In this document: piece by piece, positions 2,298 through 23,823 of the stretch
Layout: each line of letters begins with the position of its first letter
How positions within the stretch are numbered: the first letter of the stretch is position 1
Source: a virus
Length of the DNA stretch: 23,823 nucleotides
Virus record (IMG/VR): IMGVR_UViG_3300011113_000549
Coordinates: 1-23,823 of that record
Reading direction: 5' to 3' (one strand)
The notes under the pieces: model-generated
Told to the model about the DNA's origin: nothing
What the model saw: the letters and a program-made list of their open reading frames with translations, nothing else
Database searches by the model: none
Program-made: the position numbers and the translations under genes

Positions 2298-3014
2298 ATG
2301 CTTAATTATTCCAATCAACCGAAGAATGATTTTAAAGGAAAAACAATAGCATTTTGTCTTCCTGGATTTTCATATTCTGGAACTTTCATGACTCAGATGA
2401 TTCGTCTTTTGTTTGATTTAAATCAATTAGGAATCAACTTTTATATCTCGCAGAAATACAGTTCGATGGTAAACTTTGCCAGAACTGATTGTCTGCAGGC
2501 AGATAATTTTGCAGGAACATTATTGACTCCTTGGAGAGGTCAAGTTCCTTATGATTATATTATGTGGATTGATAGTGATATTATCTTTAAAACAGAAGAT
2601 CTTTTAGAACTTCTGCAGATGGATAAGGACATTTCAACTGGATGGTATGTTCAATCCAATGGAACTCCTATTACCAATCAATCAACAGTTGTTGTGAATA
2701 TGGATAAGAAACTTCTTTTGGAGAAGGGTTCTTATTATTTTGAAACGATTGAAGATATGCAACGCCGTTCGGAACCATTTAAAATTGAATACTGTGGATT
2801 TGGTTGGGTTCTGATGAAGAAAGGTATCTTCGAAAAAATTCCTTATCCTTGGTTTGCACCAAAGAAAGTTCAACTTATTCGTGAGGATGGAATCGTTTTG
2901 GAAGATATGTGTTCTGAAGATGTTGCTATGTGTGAAGATATTCGAGAGCACGGATTTGAGATCTGGTGCAATCCAAAAGTTCGTGTCGGTCATCAAAAAA
3001 TGGTAATCCTATGA
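2298..3014 (+). CDS. GT-A-type glycosyltransferase with DSD motif
   Basis: A 238-aa protein. M-W-I-D-S-D-I-I-F (about residues 90-98) is a DxD-type motif that binds nucleotide-sugar and metal in GT-A enzymes. The C-terminal S-E-D-V-A-M-C-E-D-I-R-E-H-G-F-E-I-W plus V-G-H matches the acceptor/catalytic region of small phage and bacterial GT2/Anp1-like enzymes. The start at 2298 follows the stop of the tail gene by 45 bp, with no strong Shine-Dalgarno sequence. The stop TGA overlaps the next start (ATGA at 3011-3014), so the pair is translationally coupled. The next gene is a divergent paralogue. Substrate is unknown; it presumably adds a sugar to a virion or host-surface glycan. Confidence 0.7.
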   Translation: MLNYSNQPKNDFKGKTIAFCLPGFSYSGTFMTQMIRLLFDLNQLGINFYISQKYSSMVNFARTDCLQADNFAGTLLTPWRGQVPYDYIMWIDSDIIFKTEDLLELLQMDKDISTGWYVQSNGTPITNQSTVVVNMDKKLLLEKGSYYFETIEDMQRRSEPFKIEYCGFGWVLMKKGIFEKIPYPWFAPKKVQLIREDGIVLEDMCSEDVAMCEDIREHGFEIWCNPKVRVGHQKMVIL

Positions 3015-3670
3015 TGCATTTTAATGTAGTAATTACGACTCCAGGAAGTAAAATGGAGTCTGCTTATGTCAGGTCTTTGCTTGGAACAATTCAAGCATTA
3101 GAAGCAAATAATATCACCTGGACTTATCAGAATGAGTATGCTTCTCTTGTAACAAATGCGAGAGAAGCAACCATTACTGGATCTAGGAATTTAGAAGTTT
3201 TTAATTCAGCACCAGGAAAAGGTCAATACACTTACGATAAACTTTTTTGTATTGATAGTGATATTGTTTGGAATCCTGAGCATTTTCTAAAACTTTATGC
3301 ATCGGATAAAGATGTAATTTCTGGTGTTTATTTTGAAGCACAGGGTGCTGATGCGATGATCCATCGTAATAAAGATGATTATCGCCCTATGACTAGACAA
3401 GAAATTGAACTCTTTCAACAAATTGGAGAACCATTAGAAGTTTATGGTGTTGGTCTTGGGTTTATGTGTGTAAAACAAGGTGTATTTGAAGGACTTAAGA
3501 GACCTTGGTATGGTTTGGGTAAAGTCGTTCAAGAAATTGATGGTATAGTTTATGAACTACCACTAGGTGAAGATCTTTATTGGTGCGATAGAGTTGCACA
3601 AAATGGACATCAAGTTTATGTTGATCCAACAGTTGTTGTTGGGCATGTGAAATCTAATATTGTAGTATGA
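3011..3670 (+). CDS. GT-A-type glycosyltransferase, paralogue of the preceding gene
   Basis: About 219 aa from the ATG at 3011, which overlaps the upstream TGA as ATGA. A second in-frame ATG follows at 3014, and the frame extends further upstream without a better start. L-F-C-I-D-S-D-I-V-W is the DxD motif, and G-E-D-L-Y-W-C-D-R-V-A-Q-N-G-H plus V-V-G-H near the end correspond to the same elements in the gene before. A tandem duplication is therefore likely. Y-G-V-G-L-G-F-M-C-V-K parallels Y-C-G-F-G-W-V-L-M-K in its neighbour. The stop overlaps the next ATG (ATGA at 3667-3670). The function as a sugar transferase is well supported; donor and acceptor are not known. Confidence 0.7.
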   Translation: MMHFNVVITTPGSKMESAYVRSLLGTIQALEANNITWTYQNEYASLVTNAREATITGSRNLEVFNSAPGKGQYTYDKLFCIDSDIVWNPEHFLKLYASDKDVISGVYFEAQGADAMIHRNKDDYRPMTRQEIELFQQIGEPLEVYGVGLGFMCVKQGVFEGLKRPWYGLGKVVQEIDGIVYELPLGEDLYWCDRVAQNGHQVYVDPTVVVGHVKSNIVV

Positions 3671-4377
3671 AAAAACTTGCAGTCTTTTATCATCTAGGGG
3701 CTATGAATAGTCTCTGGAATAAATTTGTGGATGAGCAATTAGGATTAATTAAGTCTTCTGGACTTGCAGATTCAGCAACTGTAAATATGTGCTATGCCGC
3801 TCCAGATCATGCAATTAATGAAATTAAAATTTATGTAAGGCAGAAATATCCTTTTGTGAATATTCTTTCTTCTAGAATCATTGAGGGAAAGGGGGAACAA
3901 GAAAACTTGTTTGAAGGGCAAACTTTAAAAGAAATTCAAACATATTCCAAAATAAATGATGGATATGTTCTTTATCTCCATTCAAAGGGAATGCTTCATG
4001 CAGTAAATTCGTATCAAACTGCTCCAACAACTGATTGGAGACATTATATGAATTACTGGTGTGTGGAAAGGTGGCAAGATTGTATTAAAAAGTTGGAAGA
4101 AGACCAGGTAGATTTAGTATCTACAAATTGGTCAAGAGATCCTTATCCACATTTTAAAGGAAATTTTTGGTGGGCAGATACGAATTATATTAAAACTCTT
4201 CCAAATGTTCTGAACCGAAGTTTATATTATGATGAGAAGTTTACAAAACAATTTGATGGACATAGATTTTGTTACGAAATTTGGGTTGCAACAAACAATC
4301 CAAAGGTAAGATCAATTCATTATAGTGCAGTTGATCATTATTATGCACTTTATCCGAGAGAGCGTTATGCAAACTAA
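3667..4377 (+). CDS. Single-domain member of a triplicated glycosyltransferase-like family
   Basis: A 236-aa protein that starts in an ATGA overlap. It consists only of the domain also found at the N-terminus of the next two genes: (I/L)-A-V-F-Y-H-L near the start, W-V/F-V-D-E-Q, T-V-N-M-C, Y-P-F-V-N-I-L, E-N-L-F-E-G-Q-T, D-G-Y-V-L-Y-L-H-S-K-G-M, D-W-R-H-Y-M, G-N-F-W-W-A. The H-S/N-K-G and W-R-x-Y-M features recall rhamnan-synthesis-F-like and related sugar transferases, so a glycosyltransferase role is plausible but not proven. It shares no DxD of the kind seen in the two genes before. It ends 11 nt inside the next gene. Confidence 0.55.
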   Translation: MKKLAVFYHLGAMNSLWNKFVDEQLGLIKSSGLADSATVNMCYAAPDHAINEIKIYVRQKYPFVNILSSRIIEGKGEQENLFEGQTLKEIQTYSKINDGYVLYLHSKGMLHAVNSYQTAPTTDWRHYMNYWCVERWQDCIKKLEEDQVDLVSTNWSRDPYPHFKGNFWWADTNYIKTLPNVLNRSLYYDEKFTKQFDGHRFCYEIWVATNNPKVRSIHYSAVDHYYALYPRERYAN

Positions 4378-5770
4378 AAATATTGCAGTCTTTTATCATC
4401 TTTTTATTCCTGATGTATCCACAACTTGGACATGGTGGGTAGATGAGCAGATGAGTTTATTGAAATCAACTGGACTTGCTGATGTATCAACAGTTAATAT
4501 GTGCATCACACTTCCTTTGGGAATTTGTGATGAAAAAAAAGATGTTAGATATGATGGATTGGTAATTAAATATATTACTGAAAATTATCCTTTTGTGAAT
4601 ATTTTGAACATAAGAGGAACTCATGAGGAAAATCTTTTTGAGGGGCAAACAGTCTCCCAACTCTATCAATACTGCTTAAAGAATGATGGATATGTTTTCT
4701 ATTTCCATAACAAGGGAATGAATTCTTATGCAACTCATATTCCATCTGCTCTCAAAGATTGGCGGCATTATATGCAATATTTTAATATTGAAAGATGGCA
4801 AGATTGTGTTGCTAAACTTGACGAGGGATATGATTGTGCTGGAGTAAGTTGGATTAAAAGAGAAGACCTAGCAGGAAACATTCCAACAGAAGGTAAAAGA
4901 TATATTGGAAATCATTTCTCTGGCAATTATTGGTGGGCAAGAAATGATTATATTCGCAGACTTCCAGATCCATTAAAAGTTGAGGAATATGTTCATATTC
5001 CATCAATGATGGACCACTTTAAGACATATCGTTATGCGTTTGAACTTTGGATTGGTGATGAAAATACTAAGTATTACTCATTCCATCAAAGTAAAACTCA
5101 TCATTATTTTGAACATTTTCCAAGAGAAAGATATGTATTAACTGATAGTCCAATAAAAACTCCTGAAATCAGTGTTTCAACTTTAATGCAAGAAGTTGGA
5201 AGTAAAAATCTTTTCAATTGGAGAGAGCATATTAAATTTGCTCAATGGATTGTGAAGAGAAAAAATCCAGATATTGTTGTGGATTTAGGTGTTGATTATG
5301 GATACTCTACTTTTTCTTTTGGACTTCCAAAGATTGGTAAAATTTATGGAATAGATAGTTTTGAAGGTGATAAACATGCAGGGGAAAGAGATACCTATAA
5401 TTATGTGATGGAAACCCAAAAGAAATTAGGATTGGATCATATTACTTTTATCAAAGGATATTTTGATGAGGTGGCAAAAATTTGGGACAAACCAATTGAT
5501 ATTCTTCATATTGATGGTCTTCATACCTATGAAGCAATCAAGAATGATTTTGATACTTGGTCAAAATTTTTGAAAAATGATGGTATAATTTTAATGCATG
5601 ATACTTGTGTTCAACATGCAGATTTTGGAGTTTATAAATTCTTTGATGAGATTAAATTACCAAAACTAAATTTTAAGGTTTCTCATGGGTTAGGTGTAGT
5701 CACTACTGATATAAAATTACTGGAAGAAATTAGAACTGAATTTAAGGAGACTCTAGATGAAAGATATTAA
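4367..5770 (+). CDS. Fusion: glycosyltransferase-like domain plus SAM-dependent methyltransferase
   Basis: 467 aa from the ATG at 4367. An upstream in-frame ATG at 4325 would overlap the previous gene by 53 nt, and the family start M-x-x-K-N-I-A-V-F-Y-H-L favours 4367, with gagag upstream. Residues 1-255 are the shared family domain (N-K-G at about 115, W-R-H-Y-M, G-N-Y-W-W-A). Residues 285-450 are a class I methyltransferase of the Methyltransf_24 type: V-D-L-G-V-D-Y-G-Y-S-T (about 305-315, SAM-binding loop), G-I-D-S-F-E-G (328-334), D-I-L-H-I-D-G-L-H-T-Y-E (378-389) and H-D-T (411-413). It probably O-methylates a sugar made or positioned by the operon enzymes. It overlaps the next gene by 14 nt. 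Confidence 0.65.
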   Translation: MQTKNIAVFYHLFIPDVSTTWTWWVDEQMSLLKSTGLADVSTVNMCITLPLGICDEKKDVRYDGLVIKYITENYPFVNILNIRGTHEENLFEGQTVSQLYQYCLKNDGYVFYFHNKGMNSYATHIPSALKDWRHYMQYFNIERWQDCVAKLDEGYDCAGVSWIKREDLAGNIPTEGKRYIGNHFSGNYWWARNDYIRRLPDPLKVEEYVHIPSMMDHFKTYRYAFELWIGDENTKYYSFHQSKTHHYFEHFPRERYVLTDSPIKTPEISVSTLMQEVGSKNLFNWREHIKFAQWIVKRKNPDIVVDLGVDYGYSTFSFGLPKIGKIYGIDSFEGDKHAGERDTYNYVMETQKKLGLDHITFIKGYFDEVAKIWDKPIDILHIDGLHTYEAIKNDFDTWSKFLKNDGIILMHDTCVQHADFGVYKFFDEIKLPKLNFKVSHGLGVVTTDIKLLEEIRTEFKETLDERY

Positions 5771-7448
5771 TGTATTTTACCACCTTTATATTCCAGATAC
5801 TTCTGGAATGTGGGTTTGGTGGGTTGATGAACAACTAGGAATTCTTGAGAAGTCTGGTCTTTCGGAAGTTGCAAAAGTCAATATGTGCATTACCATGCCT
5901 ACTGGATTGGTGGGTAGAATCAAAAGATTCAATCATACTGATAAGTTTGATCCATTAACTCAAGATTCTGAATATATTGAAAAAACATATGAAGAGACTG
6001 TTTTAGGATATATCATGCATAGATATCCATTTGTAAATATTTTGAATGTTCGTGGAATTAACGAAGAAAATATTTACGAAGGTCAAACTCTCAATCAAGT
6101 TTATGAGTATGCAAAGAAAAATGATGGATATGTTTTTTATTTTCACAGCAAAGGAGTTTTAGATTCTTTCTTTAAAGGATTTGGAATCTTTGGGCAAGAT
6201 AAAAAGTGGCGGCATTACATGCAAAAGCATTGCGTGGAAAATTGGAAAGAATGTGTTGCTAAATTAGATGAAGGGTATGATGCTGTAGGAACTCATTTTG
6301 ATAGTAATTATTATCCATTTGCTGGAAACTTTTGGTGGGCAACTACAGAACATATTAAAAGACTAGAGAATCCATTAAGACCAGAATTGTACAATGTATA
6401 TTATACGAAAGAAAATTATAGATATAACTTTGAATTATGGATTGGAACTAAAAATCCAAAAATATATTACATTGATACTTTGAATAAAGAAGAATCTGAA
6501 AAAGTTTATTTACACGCATATAACGCTATGAAAGATCATCCAGTAACTTCTTCTCCAAATAAAATGACAGATATTAAACAAAAAATGGAAATATTTACTG
6601 AAAATAAAAGATTTAATTTGTGTCGTATTGTACCTGATAATGGATTTTATATTCACTCAAATGTCTTTCATGAGATTGAGGCAGCGATGTTCTTCACTCT
6701 TCAACGAATGGGATATGAAGTCACCAATAGTGTGAATGAATTCAAAACAAATGCACGAAACATTGTATTTGGAATGCATCATTGCCCAGTGGATGTAGTT
6801 CGTCACGATATTCCAAAGGATACGATTGTTTATTCTTTGGAACAGATGAGAGATGGTCCTGAGTGTCTTCGCTGGTGCCGTAAGTATCGTGGTTTAGAAG
6901 TTTGGGATTATTCCATGAGAAATGTTGATGTTCTTCGTAAAGCAGGAGTTGAATATATAAAACACTGTAAGATTGGATACGTTCCAGAGATCTCTTATTT
7001 TGAAAGAAACAAACCTGAAGACCGTGACATTGATATTCTTTTCTATGGATCTCCATCGCCAAGAAGAGTTGCTATAATGGATGTTTTTGATAAAGATCCA
7101 AATATTAATTTTGTACATGTTCAATCAACTTATGGTGATGAACGTGATGAATATATCAAGCGAGCAAAACTAGTAATCAACTTACATAATCATGATAATC
7201 AAATCTTTGAAATGGTACGTGTATCTCATTTGATTCAAAATAAAGTTCCAGTTCTTTGTGAGAGAAATGTTTATACAGATTTTCCTCATTATATGGAAGG
7301 TGCAGTTTTTACTGCTCCTTGTCATGAGTTTGTAAAAAAAGCATATGAGATTTTGAGAAATCCAATAGAACTTGATGCTCAAGCAGAAAGAGGATTAGAA
7401 ATTTTCAAAAAATCTCCAATGGAAAACTTTCTTAAGGAAGTATTGTGA
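5757..7448 (+). CDS. Fusion: glycosyltransferase-like domain plus GT-B-like domain
   Basis: A 563-aa protein. A good Shine-Dalgarno sequence, AAGGAG (5744-5749), lies 7 nt before ATG 5757, inside the end of the previous gene. Residues 1-245 are the third copy of the shared domain (F-Y-H-L-Y-I-P-D, W-W-V-D-E-Q, Y-V-F-Y-F-H-S-K-G, W-R-H-Y-M, G-N-F-W-W-A). Residues about 285-563 look like a GT-B glycosyltransferase: an N-terminal half ending in the Y-S-L-E-Q region, then D-I-D-I-L-F-Y-G-S-P-S-P-R-R, L-V-I-N-L-H-N-H-D-N-Q-I-F-E-M-V-R and a late nucleotide-sugar-binding half with P-V-L-C-E-R. The C-terminal half resembles DUF-type GT-B proteins common in cyanophages. Substrate is unknown. Confidence 0.6.
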   Translation: MKDINVFYHLYIPDTSGMWVWWVDEQLGILEKSGLSEVAKVNMCITMPTGLVGRIKRFNHTDKFDPLTQDSEYIEKTYEETVLGYIMHRYPFVNILNVRGINEENIYEGQTLNQVYEYAKKNDGYVFYFHSKGVLDSFFKGFGIFGQDKKWRHYMQKHCVENWKECVAKLDEGYDAVGTHFDSNYYPFAGNFWWATTEHIKRLENPLRPELYNVYYTKENYRYNFELWIGTKNPKIYYIDTLNKEESEKVYLHAYNAMKDHPVTSSPNKMTDIKQKMEIFTENKRFNLCRIVPDNGFYIHSNVFHEIEAAMFFTLQRMGYEVTNSVNEFKTNARNIVFGMHHCPVDVVRHDIPKDTIVYSLEQMRDGPECLRWCRKYRGLEVWDYSMRNVDVLRKAGVEYIKHCKIGYVPEISYFERNKPEDRDIDILFYGSPSPRRVAIMDVFDKDPNINFVHVQSTYGDERDEYIKRAKLVINLHNHDNQIFEMVRVSHLIQNKVPVLCERNVYTDFPHYMEGAVFTAPCHEFVKKAYEILRNPIELDAQAERGLEIFKKSPMENFLKEVL

Positions 7449-9295
7449 TGAAAGTTATAGATAGTTTTTCATTTTTTAATGAGTTTGATATTCTTAAGTT
7501 AAGACTTGAATATCTTAAAGATGTTGTGGATTATTTTGTTATTTCTGAATGCAATTATACTCATGCTGGAAATCTAAAACCCTATTATTTGGATGATTTT
7601 CTTGATGAATTTGATGATGATCTAAAAAAGAAAATCATCAATGTTCGTTATGAACCAGATATTAGTGATTATGATTTCTCCAATCGTGATGAATGTAATT
7701 TTGAATCTGGTTTTTGGAAAATTGAAAGAGGTCAAAGAGAACATATCACTCAAGCACTTAAACAATTTTCTTCAAATGATTTGTTTATGGTAAGTGATGC
7801 CGATGAAATTCCTAGAATTGAGGCAATTAAGTATTTAAAAGAACAAACATTAGAAAAAGATTTTGCTGCCACATCAAATTGTGAGTTGTTTTATTATAAT
7901 TTTAATACTTTTTATGATATTAGATGGGGTGGAACTGTATTCACTCCAGTTGCAAATGCAATTGAAAAAGGATGTAATTTTCTTAGGGATCATTCTTACA
8001 AATTTCCTTTTGTTGAGAAGGGCGGTTGGCATTTTTCATATTTTGGAAATCCAGAAAGAATCAGAACTAAATTGCAATCCTTTGCTCATCAAGAATTTAA
8101 TAAAGATGCTATAATTAATGATCATAATATTCTGGATGCAATTTCATCTAAGAAAGATTTATTTGGAAGAAACGAAAATTTCCAATACTATAACTTTAAT
8201 AATTTCCCAGAAGATTTAAAACAAGTAATCGCTAAAATATTTCCAAAGGAGTATTACAAAATGTCAGAACCAGAAGTAATTACAAAACCAGAATATCTGC
8301 ATAATAACATGCCTCCTCTGTTGGAAGCTTCATTAAATCCTGATGGTACTGGGGGCACTGAGATTATGGGTCGTGCATGGCAAGATTTAGTTCTCCCTGC
8401 TGCTCCTGATCTTGCAGACTGGCACTGGTGCGTAATTCCTGGCGATAATGTAATTGCACCTGATAGTTCAAATATTGTTTGGTTGCATCCGCATCATAGA
8501 GAAGTTGGTCTTGAGCAACTGATGGATAAACAGTTTCAGAAACATTTCAAGGCATATGTGTTTGTTTCTGACTGGCAGTATGAAAGATTTGGTGAGAAGT
8601 TTAATCTTCCAATGGAAAAATGTTATGTTTTAAAGAATGCTATTCATCCATTTGAACCTCATAAGAAACCAAAAGGAAAACTTCAACTGATGTTCCACCC
8701 CAATCCAATTCGTGGATTGGATATTCTTTTGAATGCAATTAAACTCATTCCCGAAGAAGACTTTGATCTGCATATTTTTCACGAAATTGATCCTGATGAA
8801 AGAAAGAAACAATATGCTGAAGGATTACAAACTTATGAATATTCTCATGTCAATGAACAAGAAGAACAGTTCCTTCGTTATTGTTTAAGACTTGCTGTAA
8901 ATGATAAGAGAGTTGTTCGTCATACAAGAACGAATAATTCTAAAGTTCGTGAGCAACTTATGAATACACATATCTTTGCTTATCCTTCTTATTTTGAAGA
9001 AACTTCTTGCATTTGTTTGATTGAGGCACTTGCTGCTGGGTGTTCGGTTGTTGCTAGTAATCTTGCAGCACTTCCAGAGACTTCTCTAGGATTTGCTCGT
9101 CTTTATGGGTATATTCCTGATCGCCAAAAACACGTTGAAAGATTTGCAAGAGAATTGAAAAAAACAATTACTGAGTATCGTGAAGGTAAGTTTGATAATA
9201 CTCTTCAGGTTGAAGTGGTAAATAAATATTATAGTTGGGAAACACGAATTCAAGATTGGGTTCAGTTCTCGAAAGAACTTTGGAGGAAAGGTTAA
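7448..9295 (+). CDS. Fusion glycosyltransferase: GT17-like N-terminus and GT4-like C-terminus
   Basis: 615 aa from ATG 7448. A GTG at 7445 is directly in front, but AAGGA at 7434-7438 is better spaced for 7448, which also shares its A with the previous TGA. Residues 1-265 resemble GT17 enzymes: I-D-S-F-S-F-F-N-E-F-D-I-L-K-L-R-L, V-D-Y-F-V-I-S-E, then F-M-V-S-D-A-D-E-I-P-R. Residues about 272-610 are GT-B of the GT4 kind: G-G-T-E-I-M-G-R-A-W, V-F-V-S-D-W-Q, L-K-N-A-I, G-L-D-I-L-L-N-A, Y-P-S-Y-F-E-E-T-S-C-I-C-L-I-E-A-L-A-A-G-C (split here for brevity), with the conserved E-x7-E. An internal RBS and ATG lie exactly between the domains. It abuts the next gene (TAA then ATG). Confidence 0.7.
   Translation: MKVIDSFSFFNEFDILKLRLEYLKDVVDYFVISECNYTHAGNLKPYYLDDFLDEFDDDLKKKIINVRYEPDISDYDFSNRDECNFESGFWKIERGQREHITQALKQFSSNDLFMVSDADEIPRIEAIKYLKEQTLEKDFAATSNCELFYYNFNTFYDIRWGGTVFTPVANAIEKGCNFLRDHSYKFPFVEKGGWHFSYFGNPERIRTKLQSFAHQEFNKDAIINDHNILDAISSKKDLFGRNENFQYYNFNNFPEDLKQVIAKIFPKEYYKMSEPEVITKPEYLHNNMPPLLEASLNPDGTGGTEIMGRAWQDLVLPAAPDLADWHWCVIPGDNVIAPDSSNIVWLHPHHREVGLEQLMDKQFQKHFKAYVFVSDWQYERFGEKFNLPMEKCYVLKNAIHPFEPHKKPKGKLQLMFHPNPIRGLDILLNAIKLIPEEDFDLHIFHEIDPDERKKQYAEGLQTYEYSHVNEQEEQFLRYCLRLAVNDKRVVRHTRTNNSKVREQLMNTHIFAYPSYFEETSCICLIEALAAGCSVVASNLAALPETSLGFARLYGYIPDRQKHVERFARELKKTITEYREGKFDNTLQVEVVNKYYSWETRIQDWVQFSKELWRKG
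8245..8263 (+). promoter_or_regulatory. Internal ribosome binding site and ATG at a domain junction
   Basis: AAAGGAG (8245-8251), a 9-nt spacer and an in-frame ATG at 8261 sit at residue 272 of the GT17-GT4 fusion, just where the second enzyme domain begins. Initiation here would give a free-standing GT4 protein of about 344 aa. Confidence 0.45.
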
Positions 9296-14556: not shown

Positions 14557-15372
14557 ATGAATTATCTAAAATATTATTGTAACCTTATAAGAAAAGCGGA
14601 GAACAGAACTCCTCCCGAAGGTTATACAGAAAAACATCACACATTTCCAAAAAGTGTCTTTGGAAAAAACAATAGAGTTGTTGTGCTTACATCAAGAGAA
14701 CATTATATAGCACATGCATTATTAGAAAAGATTTGCATTAAAAGATATGGTTTGACTGATTGGAAAACAATCAAAATGAACAAAGCACATATTTTGATGT
14801 CTGGTGATAAGTATGGAAATGAGAGATATTGCAATTCTAGATTATATGAAAGTGCTGTTATAAGAAGTAAAACTTTTTATAGAGGTAAAAATCATTTTAA
14901 TTATGGTAAAAAAAGACCAGACATTTCAATTATATTAAAAAGTGAAGAAAGTCATCTTAAAAATAAAGAGGTTGTGGAAAAAAGAAATGAATCATTGAAA
15001 AAACTTGGTGAAAAACATCCATCTAAAAGAAAATCTCATAGAGAAATGATGAAAGAAATGTGGATAAATAACAATCCAATGAAAAATATAACAACACTTG
15101 AAAAAAGAAGTGGTAAAAATCATTATTTATTTGGTGTAACTGGAGACAACCATCCTCTTTACGGGAGAGAAAGACCAGATAGTGAAAAAGAAAAAATTTC
15201 ACATTCAAAATGTAAAAATAATTATAAAATTTTAAATCCTAATGGAGAAATTTTTTATACTAAAAATCTAACAAAATTTTGTAAAGAACATAATTTGCAT
15301 CCAAGTGCTATGTCCAATGTTTTGAATAAAAAAGCAAAACATCATAAAAAATGGACGGTTGAAAAAATTTAA
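14557..15372 (+). CDS. HNH homing endonuclease (free-standing)
   Basis: A 271-aa protein. E-K-H27-H28-T-F-P-K-S with N-R-V-V-V-L-T-S-R-E-H49-Y-I-A-H53 is the HNH nuclease core near the N-terminus. The middle holds NUMOD3-like DNA-binding repeats (N-H-F-N-Y-G-K-K-R-P-D, N-H-P-L-Y-G-R-E-R-P-D-S-E-K-E-K-I-S). The end resembles a NUMOD1-type helix-turn-helix (L-T-K-F-C-K-E-H-N-L-H-P-S-A-M-S-N-V-L). It cleaves a specific site in phages lacking it and spreads by repair. It is more AT- and Lys-rich than its neighbours, a sign of independent mobility. It sits between the exonuclease and gp33 with its own terminator and late promoter upstream. Confidence 0.88.
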   Translation: MNYLKYYCNLIRKAENRTPPEGYTEKHHTFPKSVFGKNNRVVVLTSREHYIAHALLEKICIKRYGLTDWKTIKMNKAHILMSGDKYGNERYCNSRLYESAVIRSKTFYRGKNHFNYGKKRPDISIILKSEESHLKNKEVVEKRNESLKKLGEKHPSKRKSHREMMKEMWINNNPMKNITTLEKRSGKNHYLFGVTGDNHPLYGRERPDSEKEKISHSKCKNNYKILNPNGEIFYTKNLTKFCKEHNLHPSAMSNVLNKKAKHHKKWTVEKI

Positions 15373-20340: not shown

Positions 20341-21168
20341 GTGGCGTTACCACGCAGAATATCAGATATAAAACCACTATTTACAAATCTTGCACAAACT
20401 TCTCATTATGAGGTTAAGTTTGGTGGACTTCCTGGAGAATTAGTAGGTTATTTGAGAACCAGAGGAGTCTCATCAAGATTTATTGCTGAGGATGCTGGTC
20501 TTTTATGCCATAATGCAGTGCTTCCAACAACACAACTTGCAACTGTAGATGTTGTTGGAAATTATATTGGTATCACAGAAACTTTTGCTCATAAAAGAAT
20601 TTATCAAGATATAAGTCTTGAGTTTTATGTTGATAATAATTATAATACATTGAAATTTTTAGAGCATTGGATGGAATTTATTGCAAGCGGGGCATCAAAT
20701 CCAATTGATGGAACTAATCTTCCAATTAATATGAATGTTGATGAGGGTTACTTTATAAGAATGCAATATCCAAAATATTACAAATCAAATCGAACGAAAA
20801 TTATTAAATTTGATCGTGATTATCAAAGAGAAATCGAATATACTTTTATTGGATTATATCCATATAATATTGCATCCATACCAGTTTCGTATGGGCAATC
20901 CGATATTTTAAAAATGCAGGTGACATTTAAAATTGATCGTTATGTAATTGGAAAATCTTATAGTATAGATTATAGTAGAAATTCTGATGGCAATAAGACC
21001 GTATCTCAACCACAAACACAAGCAGGACCACAACCATCAATAAGATTAGTTCCAAGATCTCCTGGATCTATACCATCAAATGGTGTAGAATTATTTGATT
21101 CTAATAAAACTACTTATGAAAATCTTTATGGTAGTAAATTAAAAGAGATTCGTCAAAGAATAATTTAA
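20341..21168 (+). CDS. 54: Baseplate tail-tube initiator gp54
   Basis: A 275-aa protein with a GTG start at 20341. The core F-G-G-L-P, A-G-L-L-C, A-V-L-P-T-T-Q-L-A-T and V-V-G-N-Y-I-G-I-T-E-T-F-A-H-K-R-I-Y (split), with L-E-F-Y-V-D-N-N-Y and F-L-E-H-W-M-E-F-I, is a tail-tube-like fold as in gp19 and gp54. The C-terminal 60 residues are Pro/Ser/Gln-rich. It sits on top of gp48 and starts tube polymerisation. T4 gp54 is somewhat longer (about 320 aa). gp48 is an alternative label, but the neighbour on the other strand fits gp48 better. Confidence 0.7.
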   Translation: MALPRRISDIKPLFTNLAQTSHYEVKFGGLPGELVGYLRTRGVSSRFIAEDAGLLCHNAVLPTTQLATVDVVGNYIGITETFAHKRIYQDISLEFYVDNNYNTLKFLEHWMEFIASGASNPIDGTNLPINMNVDEGYFIRMQYPKYYKSNRTKIIKFDRDYQREIEYTFIGLYPYNIASIPVSYGQSDILKMQVTFKIDRYVIGKSYSIDYSRNSDGNKTVSQPQTQAGPQPSIRLVPRSPGSIPSNGVELFDSNKTTYENLYGSKLKEIRQRII

Positions 21169-21207: not shown

Positions 21208-21927
21208 ATGGTATTACCAAAAATTGCAACACCTTCATATTCTTTAGAAATTCCATCTCTTAAAAAGGAAATTAAATATCGACCATTTCTTGTAAAAGAG
21301 GAAAAAATTCTTATCATCGCAATGGAAAGCGAAGATCCAAAACAAATCGCAGAAGCGGTTAAAACTGTAATCAATAATTGTATTCTAACTAGAGGAATTA
21401 AAGTTGAACAACTTGCAACTTTTGATATTGAATATTTGTTTCTTAATATTCGTGGAAAGTCGGTTGGAGAAACAGTTGATGTTCTAATCACTTGTCCTGA
21501 TGATGGAAAAACTCAAGTTCCTGTAAGTATTAATCTTGACGATATTCAAATTAGTGTTGATAAAAAACATTCAAGAGATATTAAACTTGATGATAATTTG
21601 ACTTTAAGAATGAAATATCCATCAATGAATGAATTTATTAAATCTAATTTTGGTAATGATTTTAATATGAGTGTAGATGATACCTTCAGTTTGATTGTTT
21701 CTTGTATGGAGCAAGTTTATAGTGAAGAAGAATCTTGGTCTGCATCTGATTGCACTCAAAAAGAATTATCTGAATTTATTGAACAATTAAGTTCAAAGCA
21801 ATTTAAAGAGGTTGAAAATTTCTTTTCTACAATGCCTAAACTTTCTCATACTCTTAAGATTAAGAATCCAAATACTGAAGTTGAAAGCGAAGTATTGCTG
21901 GAGGGATTATCAAGTTTTTTCGCCTAG
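21208..21927 (+). CDS. 26: gp26-like baseplate hub/tail assembly protein (T4_baseplate family)
   Basis: A 239-aa protein. M-V-L-P-K-I-A-T-P-S-Y and K-Y-R-P-F-L-V-K-E-E-K-I-L are the family start; T-C-P-D-D-G-K and L-R-M-K-Y-P-S occur centrally. T4 gp26 is 208 aa and is needed for baseplate hub formation. The protein ends L-S-S-F-F-A-stop, where the last Phe-Phe codons are part of a T TTT TTC heptamer (21915-21921). The gp51-like sequence follows in the -1 frame, so this gene probably also makes a 296-aa frameshift product. The GIY-YIG element is inserted shortly downstream. Confidence 0.78.
   Translation: MVLPKIATPSYSLEIPSLKKEIKYRPFLVKEEKILIIAMESEDPKQIAEAVKTVINNCILTRGIKVEQLATFDIEYLFLNIRGKSVGETVDVLITCPDDGKTQVPVSINLDDIQISVDKKHSRDIKLDDNLTLRMKYPSMNEFIKSNFGNDFNMSVDDTFSLIVSCMEQVYSEEESWSASDCTQKELSEFIEQLSSKQFKEVENFFSTMPKLSHTLKIKNPNTEVESEVLLEGLSSFFA
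21900..21921 (+). promoter_or_regulatory. Candidate programmed -1 frameshift site
   Basis: Slippery heptamer T TTT TTC (21915-21921) in the gp26 frame, two codons before its stop. Shine-Dalgarno-like GGAGGG (21900-21905) ends 9 nt upstream, as in E. coli dnaX. No strong downstream stem-loop was seen. Confidence 0.65.
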
Positions 21928-22097
21928 CTCTTTCACATGAGAATCTCGAATCATTTTATAAGACAAACTTTTCTTTGATTCAACATCACGGTTGGTCTCT
22001 TACTGAAATTAATGAAATGATTCCATGGGAAAGAGAGATTTATATTGCTCTTCTCAAACAATATATTGAAGAAGAAAACTTAAAAAATCAAAGTTGA
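21921..22097 (+). CDS. 51: gp51-like tail assembly region, expressed by -1 frameshift from gp26
   Basis: 58 codons plus TGA (22095-22097) in the -1 frame of gp26: starts R-L-A-L-S-H-E-N-L-E-S-F-Y after the slip, then H-H-G-W-S-L-T-E-I-N-E-M-I-P-W-E-R-E-I-Y and the helix I-A-L-L-K-Q-Y-I-E-E-E. The frame is open only back to 21885 and holds no ATG, GTG, TTG or CTG before a TTG at 21975, so it cannot start conventionally without losing half of the conserved part. ATT 21906 or ATC 21909 starts are conceivable. The last 11 codons (22062-22094) are a recoded copy of the original end now found at 22932-22973. In T4 gp51 also follows gp26. Confidence 0.65.
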   Translation, partial: RLALSHENLESFYKTNFSLIQHHGWSLTEINEMIPWEREIYIALLKQYIEEENLKNQS

Positions 22098-22811
22098 TTT
22101 TTTAGATTTTTTAAGCCCAGCGATCCAACCTTCTCCTGGACATTCTATGGATCTTTTATTTTTATAACCATTATTCCACCATTTTTTACCATAAGCAGCA
22201 TTATTTTCTCCTTTATTCGCTTCACTTATTTTGATTCTGGTTTCCTCGGAGAGTGATTTTCCATATCTAGGGTGATTTTTACCACTATTTGCTTCGCTCA
22301 ATTTTTTTCTAGTTTCTTCGGAGATTGATTTTTTATAAAAAAAATGCTTTTCACCTTTCAGTGCTTCACTTATTTTTATTCTGGTTTCTTTGGATGGTGA
22401 TTTTCCATACATAGGATTATTTTTACCTTTATTTCTATTTTTGCTTGATATTCCTATTTTTTTCTTAGTTTCTTCTGATAATGTTTTGCCTTTGTGAATT
22501 TCACTAATTTTTTTCTTAGTTTCTTTACTATGAATTAATCCAGAGCAACCATCACCGCCATCAGTTCTATTATGAAGAATACCAGTTCCCAAATCTTTTC
22601 TACCAAAGACAGCAATCATATACTTTTCGTGCTTAAATGCTTCTTCTTCAGTTAAGTTTTGTTTTAGAAATATTATTCTTGATTTATTTTTGGGTGGTTT
22701 TGTTCCTTTATATTTTTTATATACTCTATTACCTTGTCCCTTACCAATGTAATAAGGAGTTTTATCTTCCCGCAAATATGCGTAAGTGTAAAACCTATTA
22801 TAGTTTACCAT
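22080..22811 (-). CDS. GIY-YIG homing endonuclease with NUMOD3 repeats
   Basis: A 243-aa protein. N-terminal nuclease: F-Y-T-Y-A-Y (GIY position), P-Y-Y-I-G-K-G (YIG), G-N-R, then the catalytic glutamate in F-K-H-E-K-Y-M-I-A and N-R in L-H-N-R-T-D-G-G-D-G. From about residue 95 about six NUMOD3-type repeats follow (E-E-T-R-K-K-L-S-E-A-N-S-G-K-N-H-P-R-Y-G-K), ending W-W-N-N-G-Y-K-N-K-R. It nicks or cuts a specific site and spreads by repair. It is inserted in the 3' end of the gp51 frame, in opposite orientation. Its last codons overlap the recoded gp51 tail (22080-22097). A late TATAAATA box lies upstream. It is Lys-rich and AT-rich like other mobile endonucleases. Confidence 0.9.
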   Translation of the reverse strand: MVNYNRFYTYAYLREDKTPYYIGKGQGNRVYKKYKGTKPPKNKSRIIFLKQNLTEEEAFKHEKYMIAVFGRKDLGTGILHNRTDGGDGCSGLIHSKETKKKISEIHKGKTLSEETKKKIGISSKNRNKGKNNPMYGKSPSKETRIKISEALKGEKHFFYKKSISEETRKKLSEANSGKNHPRYGKSLSEETRIKISEANKGENNAAYGKKWWNNGYKNKRSIECPGEGWIAGLKKSKKSTLIF

Positions 22812-22822
22812 AACTTCTCTTT

Positions 22823-22897
22823 AGTTGACTGCATTTAATATTTATAATTTAAAGGAGAGTATTTCTACTCCCCTACCCGTAGAGATTGCAGTCAACT
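22823..22897. repeat. 11-bp inverted repeat enclosing a hairpin
   Basis: AGTTGACTGCA (22823-22833) and TGCAGTCAACT (22887-22897) are perfect inverted copies. Between them lies a GAAA-capped stem on the minus strand (GGGGAGTA / TACTCTCC, plus-strand 22854-22873) followed on that strand by TTTAAATT, resembling a weak intrinsic terminator. The region lies inside the inserted element. Confidence 0.65.
22839..22846 (-). promoter_or_regulatory. Late promoter TATAAATA for the GIY-YIG gene
   Basis: Exact T4 late consensus on the minus strand, 27 nt before the ATG at 22811. Confidence 0.55.
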
Positions 22898-22931: not shown

Positions 22932-22973
22932 TATATCGAAGAAGAAAACCTAAAGAACCAATCAAATGGCTGA
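22932..22973 (+). pseudogene. Detached original 3' end of the gp51 frame
   Basis: Codons TAT ATC GAA GAA GAA AAC CTA AAG AAC CAA TCA AAT GGC TGA encode Y-I-E-E-E-N-L-K-N-Q-S-N-G. The first eleven residues are identical to the present end of gp51 (22062-22094), with mostly synonymous third-base differences. It overlaps the ATG of the next gene (AATGGCTGA), the arrangement expected before the GIY-YIG insertion separated it. Confidence 0.8.
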
Positions 22974-23823
22974 GTTAGATCCTGAAAAAGTTGGCAGATT
23001 AGGTGTTGATCCGGGCACAGGGTCTCCTTTGTCTCAAGAAGTTCGTAATGCTCTTTTAAAAAAATCTACTATTGATGCATCTGTTTTTCAAAATATTGAA
23101 AGTAGAAGAACACAAACCGATGCACAAAACGCAGAATTGTCTAAAGGGCAGGAACAAGCTCTTTTAGGATTTAATTCAACTCTTCAATCTATAAGAACTG
23201 ATATTGTAAAACTGGGAACAGGTCTTTCTGGTATTGCTCTTCTTCTTCAGCAAGATGCGGCGGAAGATCAAAATAAAATTAGAGCAGATCAAGAAAAGCA
23301 AAGATTATTAACAGAACGCCAAGTTAGAGTCGGAAAAGAAAATGAAATAGAACAAAAAATTCAAAATGCAATTTCCGAACCTGTCCAGAGGTTAGTTCCA
23401 CAAGTAAATGATGTTTTTGGTAGAATCGGTGCAGCACTTGGAATTTTATTTGGTGGATGGTTAACGAACCAAACTGTTCAGGCAATAAAGGCATCTGAAG
23501 AAGGAAATACGAAATTATTCAATGAGATCCGATTTAATATTCTTAAAAATGTTGGAATAGCAGTTGGTGGATTGTTTGCAATCAGAGCAGGATTTTCATT
23601 AATTAAAAGAACAATTGGTGGTATTGCTTTAGGTCTAACTAAACTTTTAATTGCAAAACCTCTTGCACTTGCAGCATCGTTGATTCCTCGTCCTGGTGGT
23701 GGACCAAAACCAAGTGGACCAAAACCAAGTGGACCAAAACCAAGTGGAGGAGTTCTTGGTGGACTTGGAAAACTTCTCACAGGTCTTAGTTCAGCAATGA
23801 ATGCTAAAAATAAAGAATACACT
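22966..23823 (+). CDS. Tape-measure-like structural protein, N-terminal part (truncated by window end)
   Basis: An open frame of 286 codons from ATG 22966 to the window end without a stop. Residues about 25-140 are charged and helical with coiled-coil character (many Gln/Glu/Lys/Arg). Then F-G-R-I-G-A-A-L-G-I-L-F-G-G-W-L and V-G-I-A-V-G-G-L-F-A-I-R form hydrophobic segments, followed by L-I-P-R-P-G-G-G and three G-P-K-P-S repeats. Place directly after gp26/gp51 and the mixture of coiled coil with hydrophobic stretches suggest a tail tape-measure or large tail structural protein. The identity is not proven. The old ATG overlap with the gp51 end supports the start. Confidence 0.55.
   Translation, partial: MAELDPEKVGRLGVDPGTGSPLSQEVRNALLKKSTIDASVFQNIESRRTQTDAQNAELSKGQEQALLGFNSTLQSIRTDIVKLGTGLSGIALLLQQDAAEDQNKIRADQEKQRLLTERQVRVGKENEIEQKIQNAISEPVQRLVPQVNDVFGRIGAALGILFGGWLTNQTVQAIKASEEGNTKLFNEIRFNILKNVGIAVGGLFAIRAGFSLIKRTIGGIALGLTKLLIAKPLALAASLIPRPGGGPKPSGPKPSGPKPSGGVLGGLGKLLTGLSSAMNAKNKEYT
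23704..23748 (+). repeat. Three tandem 15-bp coding repeats
   Basis: CCAAAACCAAGTGGA repeated exactly three times, coding P-K-P-S-G linkers in the tape-measure-like gene. Confidence 0.9.

Follow-up and report, generated by a model that had tools for sequence, protein, structure and literature searches.

A predicted programmed −1 frameshift joins gp26 to a gp51-like extension in T4-like cyanophages and related T4-like phages

Introduction

The chaperone gene E/E′ of P2, a contractile-tailed phage, harbours the heptamer T TTT TTG, and the corresponding heptamer of lambda is G GGA AAG, unlike the T TTT TTC found in the cyanophage DNA described here.

In a 2016 review, the frameshift was described as widely conserved in long-tailed phages, with T4 as the exception (PMC5009743). 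According to the papers citing it, Vladimirov et al. (2022) have since identified chaperone genes in T4-like phages (PMC10885494, PMC12846349). As relayed by the first of these papers, some T4-like phages encode the two forms in separate genes, one short and one long and fused, in place of frameshifting (PMC10885494), and the second credits the same study with poly-T slip sites in T4-like TAC-N genes (PMC12846349). Since two-isoform genes and poly-T slip sites have already been reported for T4-like phages, as far as these citing papers convey, the system presented here is of a known kind. T4 gp26 and gp51 are both listed as chaperones of hub assembly; gp51, though required, does not form part of the final particle (PMC3004832). 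A literature search, with Vladimirov et al. (2022) outside its reach, returned no paper joining cyanophage, ribosomal frameshift and baseplate hub.

Results

A predicted slip site at the 3′ end of gp26

We analysed a 23,823-base IMG/VR virus record (IMGVR_UViG_3300011113_000549), here called the window, from a T4-like cyanophage near Synechococcus phage S-SRM01 (gp26 identity 97.9%). Around the site, the tail tube gene is followed by gp26 and the gp51-like frame; behind these come a minus-strand homing endonuclease gene and a further late gene (Table 1). The original prediction cited frameshifted chaperone pairs directly before the tape-measure gene as nearly universal in long-tailed phages. 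In the window, the endonuclease separates gp51 from the late gene behind it, and that gene gave no family match in our family search. In HTVC008M, a tape-measure-like gene follows the gp26/gp51 locus. Elsewhere in the window, we noted a glutamine riboswitch (RF01739, 11444-11502, plus strand, 46.5 bits) 5′ of small ORFs from 11680 and, by eye, a run of six large glycosyltransferase-like ORFs (2298-9295, plus strand) and an ORF resembling an HNH homing endonuclease (14557-15372, plus strand).

Table 1. Features at and around the predicted frameshift site in the window.
Feature	Position	Strand	Evidence or remark
Tail tube protein gene	20341..21168	+	Directly 5′ of gp26; PHROG 45 tail tube, E 6e-38; Pfam Phage_TTP_2, E 7e-19
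gp26, predicted short isoform (TAC-N), 239 aa; zero-frame stop TAG 21925-21927	21208..21927	+	Pfam T4_baseplate, E 4e-75; PHROG 150
GGAGGG, Shine-Dalgarno-like putative stimulator	21900..21905	+	9 nt separate it from the heptamer
Slippery heptamer T TTT TTC	21915..21921	+	In phase in 201/202 loci
−1 frame extension, gp51-like, 58 aa after the predicted slip; stop 22095-22097	21921..22097	+	PHROG 634 baseplate hub assembly catalyst, E 1e-27
GIY-YIG/NUMOD3 homing endonuclease at the gp51 3′ end	22080..22811	−	Pfam NUMOD3, E 1e-35; PHROG 314 homing endonuclease
Remnant second copy of the gp51 3′ end, located behind the inserted endonuclease and ahead of the following gene	22932..22962	+	Comparison with S-SRM01 and IMG/VR relatives
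Following late gene, truncated by the window end	22966..23823	+	In relatives its start overlaps the gp51 end (gap −8 nt)

The 3′ end of gp26 reads TCA AGT TTT TTC GCC TAG, so that the protein ends in S-S-F-F-A, and T TTT TTC lies in the X XXY YYZ phase that tandem −1 slippage needs. A single codon (GCC) separates TTC from TAG, and not two as first described. From 21885 up to its stop the −1 frame is uninterrupted, and scanning this stretch we found no ATG, GTG or TTG before the ATG within N-E-M-I-P-W-E. This agrees with the earlier view that the gp51-like frame lies in the −1 frame of gp26 without a canonical start, and the nine-nucleotide distance between GGAGGG and the heptamer was likewise recovered. 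ATT at 21906 and ATC at 21909 were rejected as gp51 starts, as they lie 0 and 3 nt from the Shine-Dalgarno-like (SD-like) element, an unsuitable spacing. The predicted fusion has 296 aa with the junction peptide S-S-F-F-R-L-A-L, and the few codons near the junction are dual-coding. Within the window, TTTTTTC is not over-represented (23 occurrences, 23.8 expected), and the single GAGG-N10-TTTTTTY (0.12 expected) is suggestive only. As the heptamer count is at chance level, the case rests on comparative evidence.

The heptamer is conserved at the nucleotide level

Related loci were collected through their homology to gp26 only; in annotated phage genomes, homology to either gp26 or gp51 qualified a locus. 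T TTT TTN was found in slip phase near the gp26 stop in 201 of the 202 usable loci, Vibrio phage D494 being the exception. Among eight further distant phages, seven harbour the heptamer, including KVP40, pf16, Stenotrophomonas BUCT608, Citrobacter Ci1, Agrobacterium OLIVR5 and Rhizobium Y68, and Vibrio GR28A lacks it. The conservation in related phages that had been put forward as a check is thus borne out. The proposal that gp26/gp51 forms the chaperone system of T4-like cyanophages is supported as well, but its restriction to cyanophages is too narrow, as the heptamer also occurs in T4-like phages of Pelagibacter, Methylophilales, Sinorhizobium, Rhizobium, Agrobacterium, Pseudomonas, Stenotrophomonas, Citrobacter, Aeromonas and Vibrio.

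Removal of near-duplicates left 118 loci, 117 of them carrying the slip site. In all 117, the first Phe codon is TTT (background 74%), while the second is TTC in 109 and TTT in seven. The codon before Phe-Phe ends in T in 117/117 loci, compared to 73.8 expected from codon usage, and is AGT, TCT, AAT, GAT, GCT, GGT or ACT, which together encode six amino acids. This pattern of a T-ending codon followed by TTT indicates selection on the nucleotides, beyond that on Phe-Phe alone.

In Rhizobium phage RHph_I1_18 (L089, 1501-2378), the slip site is T TTT TTA and lies farther 5′ of the gp26 stop, which gives the predicted short isoform a longer private tail. In Vibrio phages D494 (L090) and GR28A (L219), the heptamer is missing and TAATG joins gp26 to the gp51-like frame, possibly a switch to translational coupling. 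A scan of viral contigs with the Vibrio gp26 gave no matches. Replacement of the heptamer by an ATG-started gp51, an observation named beforehand as refuting a frameshift, was seen only in these two divergent phages; close relatives bearing an ATG retain the heptamer.

An SD-like element precedes the heptamer

The Glu codon that forms GAGG in the SD-like element is GAG in 87 of 99 non-redundant loci, compared to 28% elsewhere in gp26 (binomial P 8e-36, uncorrected for relatedness; the sequences are related, so that P values and formal probabilities overstate the evidence). No other Glu column of gp26 is as GAG-biased, the next best reaching 49/83. In 89/117 loci, 10 nt separate the longest anti-SD match from the heptamer. 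In loci without an ATG, the codon is still GAG in 21 of 23 Glu codons, and since the bias persists there, it does not reflect a ribosome binding site for a gp51 ATG. From the sequence pattern we infer that GGAGGG would stimulate slippage. A test for stem-loop structure in the RNA 3′ of the heptamer gave none better than shuffles (z 0.6). The strong selection on the upstream GAG codon would make this locus a clean case for SD-stimulated frameshifting in cyanobacterial hosts. We found no description of this selection or of a survey of this breadth, with the contents of Vladimirov et al. (2022) taken as the citing papers present them.

The −1 frame is maintained as a continuation of gp26

The extension is open in every locus except those cut by a contig end, and its first residue is Arg in 105 of 117 loci. 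The distance from the heptamer to the P-x-E (PWE) motif is 34 codons in 112/115 loci, nearly all loci show no indels in between, and pN/pS of the extension is about 0.09. Together with the fused T4 gp51 described below, the fixed spacing and the low pN/pS indicate that the −1 frame is selected as a continuation of the zero-frame protein.

The expectation that relatives would lack a gp51 start held for part of them only: 18 of 117 loci have no canonical start near the start of the extension, another 16 have GTG or TTG only, and in total 34 are without ATG, whereas 74 have an ATG shortly 3′ of the heptamer. In nine loci, a TAATG or TGATG overlap is present. In the start-like column, we counted 70 M, 42 L and 4 V. 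Public annotations either choose a later ATG for gp51 or omit the gene.

Fusion in all lineages could be accompanied by an independently started C-terminal gp51 protein wherever an ATG is present, a scenario compatible with frameshifting. It would account for the constant ATG position in most cyanophages and for the TAATG found alongside the heptamer in S-CRM01, KVP40 and Stenotrophomonas phages. However, in loci inspected by eye there was no SD at a useful spacing before the ATG, M is freely replaced by L or V, and such a product is impossible in the window itself, so that we consider this addition unlikely.

Far less probable still is that gp51 is solely a separate short protein, made by termination-reinitiation at the TAATG/TGATG overlap or a nearby ATG with no fusion needed. 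The ATG-bearing loci, the own start given in public annotations and the two Vibrio phages with TAATG and no heptamer fit this model, but the ATG-less loci and the window do not, and neither does the alternation of M with L and V. It also leaves unexplained why the heptamer is frozen, why the codon before it ends in T, why GAG prevails in ATG-less loci and why indels are absent, and T4 gp51 is one fused chain. Transcriptional instead of ribosomal slippage on the T run, which is six T long in every heptamer-bearing locus, hardly deserves credence, as six T are short for a polymerase, longer runs are unfavoured (see the second Phe codon), the codon phase is fixed and the selected SD-like element at constant spacing is readable by the ribosome only.

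T4 gp51 corresponds to the predicted fusion

When a profile of the predicted fusion was compared to T4-type gp51, 229 columns aligned with an E value of 6e-19, straight across the slip point. In T4 gp51, a complete PF12322 (gp26) domain and, behind it, the PHROG 634 (gp51) part share a single frame, and by homology to both families the window locus belongs to the T4 gp26/gp51 family. As both parts are in one T4 chain, an ordinary T4 gene encodes the long product that is predicted here for the cyanophage. The 3′ end of T4 gene 26 reads GAG TTC TTT GAG and has no heptamer; the only in-phase heptamers in this gene are two TTTAAA-type sites, none at the junction. The end-to-end alignment of T4 gp51 with the predicted fusion indicates that T4 holds the long form as a separate gene, with the heptamer lost. 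The earlier notion that T4 types lack such a system is therefore outdated: T4 itself has gp26 and a fused gp51, and chaperone genes of T4-like phages were identified in 2022, as reported by citing papers.

The N-terminal fold of gp26

A structural model of gp26 (pLDDT 86.7) matched best the HK97 tail assembly chaperone 2ob9 (Z 7.9, rmsd 4.2, 84 residues), followed by 3fgx (Z 7.7) and YqbN 3klu (Z 7.0). The phage-like element protein 5ir0 reached Z 4.7 and unrelated rows at most 4.0. The match is limited to gp26 residues 1-88, and Z values below 8 may mean merely a common arrangement; Foldseek gave a weak result for the same model (E 1.4, probability 0.72). Taken with the gene position and the homology to T4 gp26/gp51, the modelled fold supports the assignment of the N-terminal domain as TAC-N. 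A fold search with a T4-type gp51 model gave nothing above background, so that no fold was recognised for the extension, though one may exist.

A homing endonuclease is inserted behind gp51

The endonuclease gene, an insertion that is no part of the frameshift mechanism, adjoins the 3′ end of gp51 and is encoded on the other strand. It was found in seven loci, including the window, and is absent from the site in most relatives. In the carriers inspected, gp51 reads H-(G/N/H/R)-W-S, compared to H-K-Y-S in the endonuclease-free relatives inspected. The gp51 codons at about 21990-22030 are GGT TGG TCT CTT, compared to AAA TAY TCA TTG in endonuclease-free relatives. The target has apparently been recoded, which would fit cleavage by the endonuclease at this place with recoding of the carrier phages. 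L020 and L021 have kept the recoded gp51 and have only a remnant of the insertion with the endonuclease deleted; L015 also has the recoded gp51, on a contig that breaks off shortly behind it. No canonical gp51 start is present in the window, L015, L020 or L021, and all four carry the recoded allele, while other recoded loci retain the ATG. Without a gp51 ATG, frameshifting would be the sole canonical route to the gp51 part in these four.

The minus-strand leader of the endonuclease (22825-22895), 13 nt before its start, is folded as TTGACTGCAATCTCTACGGGT-hairpin-TATAAATA-TTAAATGCAGTCAA with a z-score of −5.2. In its inner hairpin, both sides change with pairing kept. An exact-stem scan of viral contigs found the element in 45 contigs, in more than half of them 11-15 nt before GIY-YIG-like genes. 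Comparison to Rfam gave no family at threshold. The leader contains TATAAATA, which resembles a T4 late promoter, and could make translation of the endonuclease depend on late transcription.

Discussion

We consider it highly probable that a programmed −1 frameshift at T TTT TTC, with the SD-like element as stimulator, produces a short and a long chaperone isoform. The heptamer, the SD-like element, the extension, the T4 gp51 comparison, the fold comparisons and the place right behind the tail tube gene all support the original prediction that such a frameshift fuses gp26 and gp51. Accepting this, gp26 and the gp51-like frame would be a single tail-assembly-chaperone gene. Most ribosomes would end at the TAG at 21925 and release the TAC-N of 239 aa. 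Pairing of GGAGGG with the 16S rRNA anti-Shine-Dalgarno would help to hold some ribosomes at T TTT TTC, where they may slip back by one base while tRNA-Phe re-pairs from TTT TTC to TTT TTT. Slipped ribosomes would make the 296-aa TAC-NC fusion, ...LSSFF-RLALSHENL.... By analogy to lambda gpG/gpGT, the short form may coat the tape measure, and the extension may recruit tail tube subunits. The sequence signals, their conservation, selection on the fused product, the T4 gp51 homology and the chaperone-like fold of the gp26 N-terminus are what the analysis shows; slippage in vivo and this lambda-like division of labour are inferred. Frameshifting would then be the expression mechanism for gp51 where annotation invents a start or omits the gene, for instance in S-CAM1, S-PRM1 and DSL-LC03.

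The cassette of SD-GAGG and T TTT TTC is, in our view, more likely than not ancestral for the two chaperone isoforms across the T4-like superfamily. In the T4 branch, a duplicated gene with a fused product (gp51) would have taken its place and the heptamer would have disappeared, while TAATG coupling would have taken over in at least one Vibrio branch. If the cassette is ancestral, gp51 entries with a separate start, several hundred in the databases, would be annotation artefacts. The frameshift itself would account for the pair of paralogous hub-assembly proteins in T4 and turn the exchange between frameshifting and gene duplication into an evolutionary event open to testing.

Compared to T4, where gp26 is the short paralogue and gp51 the full-length fusion, the window phage would obtain by frameshifting from one locus what T4 encodes in two genes. 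The T4-like chaperones of Vladimirov et al. (2022), as the citing papers describe them, comprise short and long isoforms like those predicted here. In the chaperone gene of P2, E/E′, the heptamer is nearly the same as T TTT TTC of the window, and the likeness lies in the heptamer and the gene role. In the chaperone genes of Vandenendeviridae and Andersonviridae, the −1 frame likewise runs through the locus uninterrupted and a poly-T site is conserved, but these are other families and their slip motif is GTTTTT, compared to TTTTTTC in the window (PMC12846349). In lambda gpG/gpGT, the −1 slip, like the one predicted here, occurs near the end of a chaperone gene; in lambda this gene is located between the tail tube and tape measure genes, and the long isoform is the minor one (PMC5009743).
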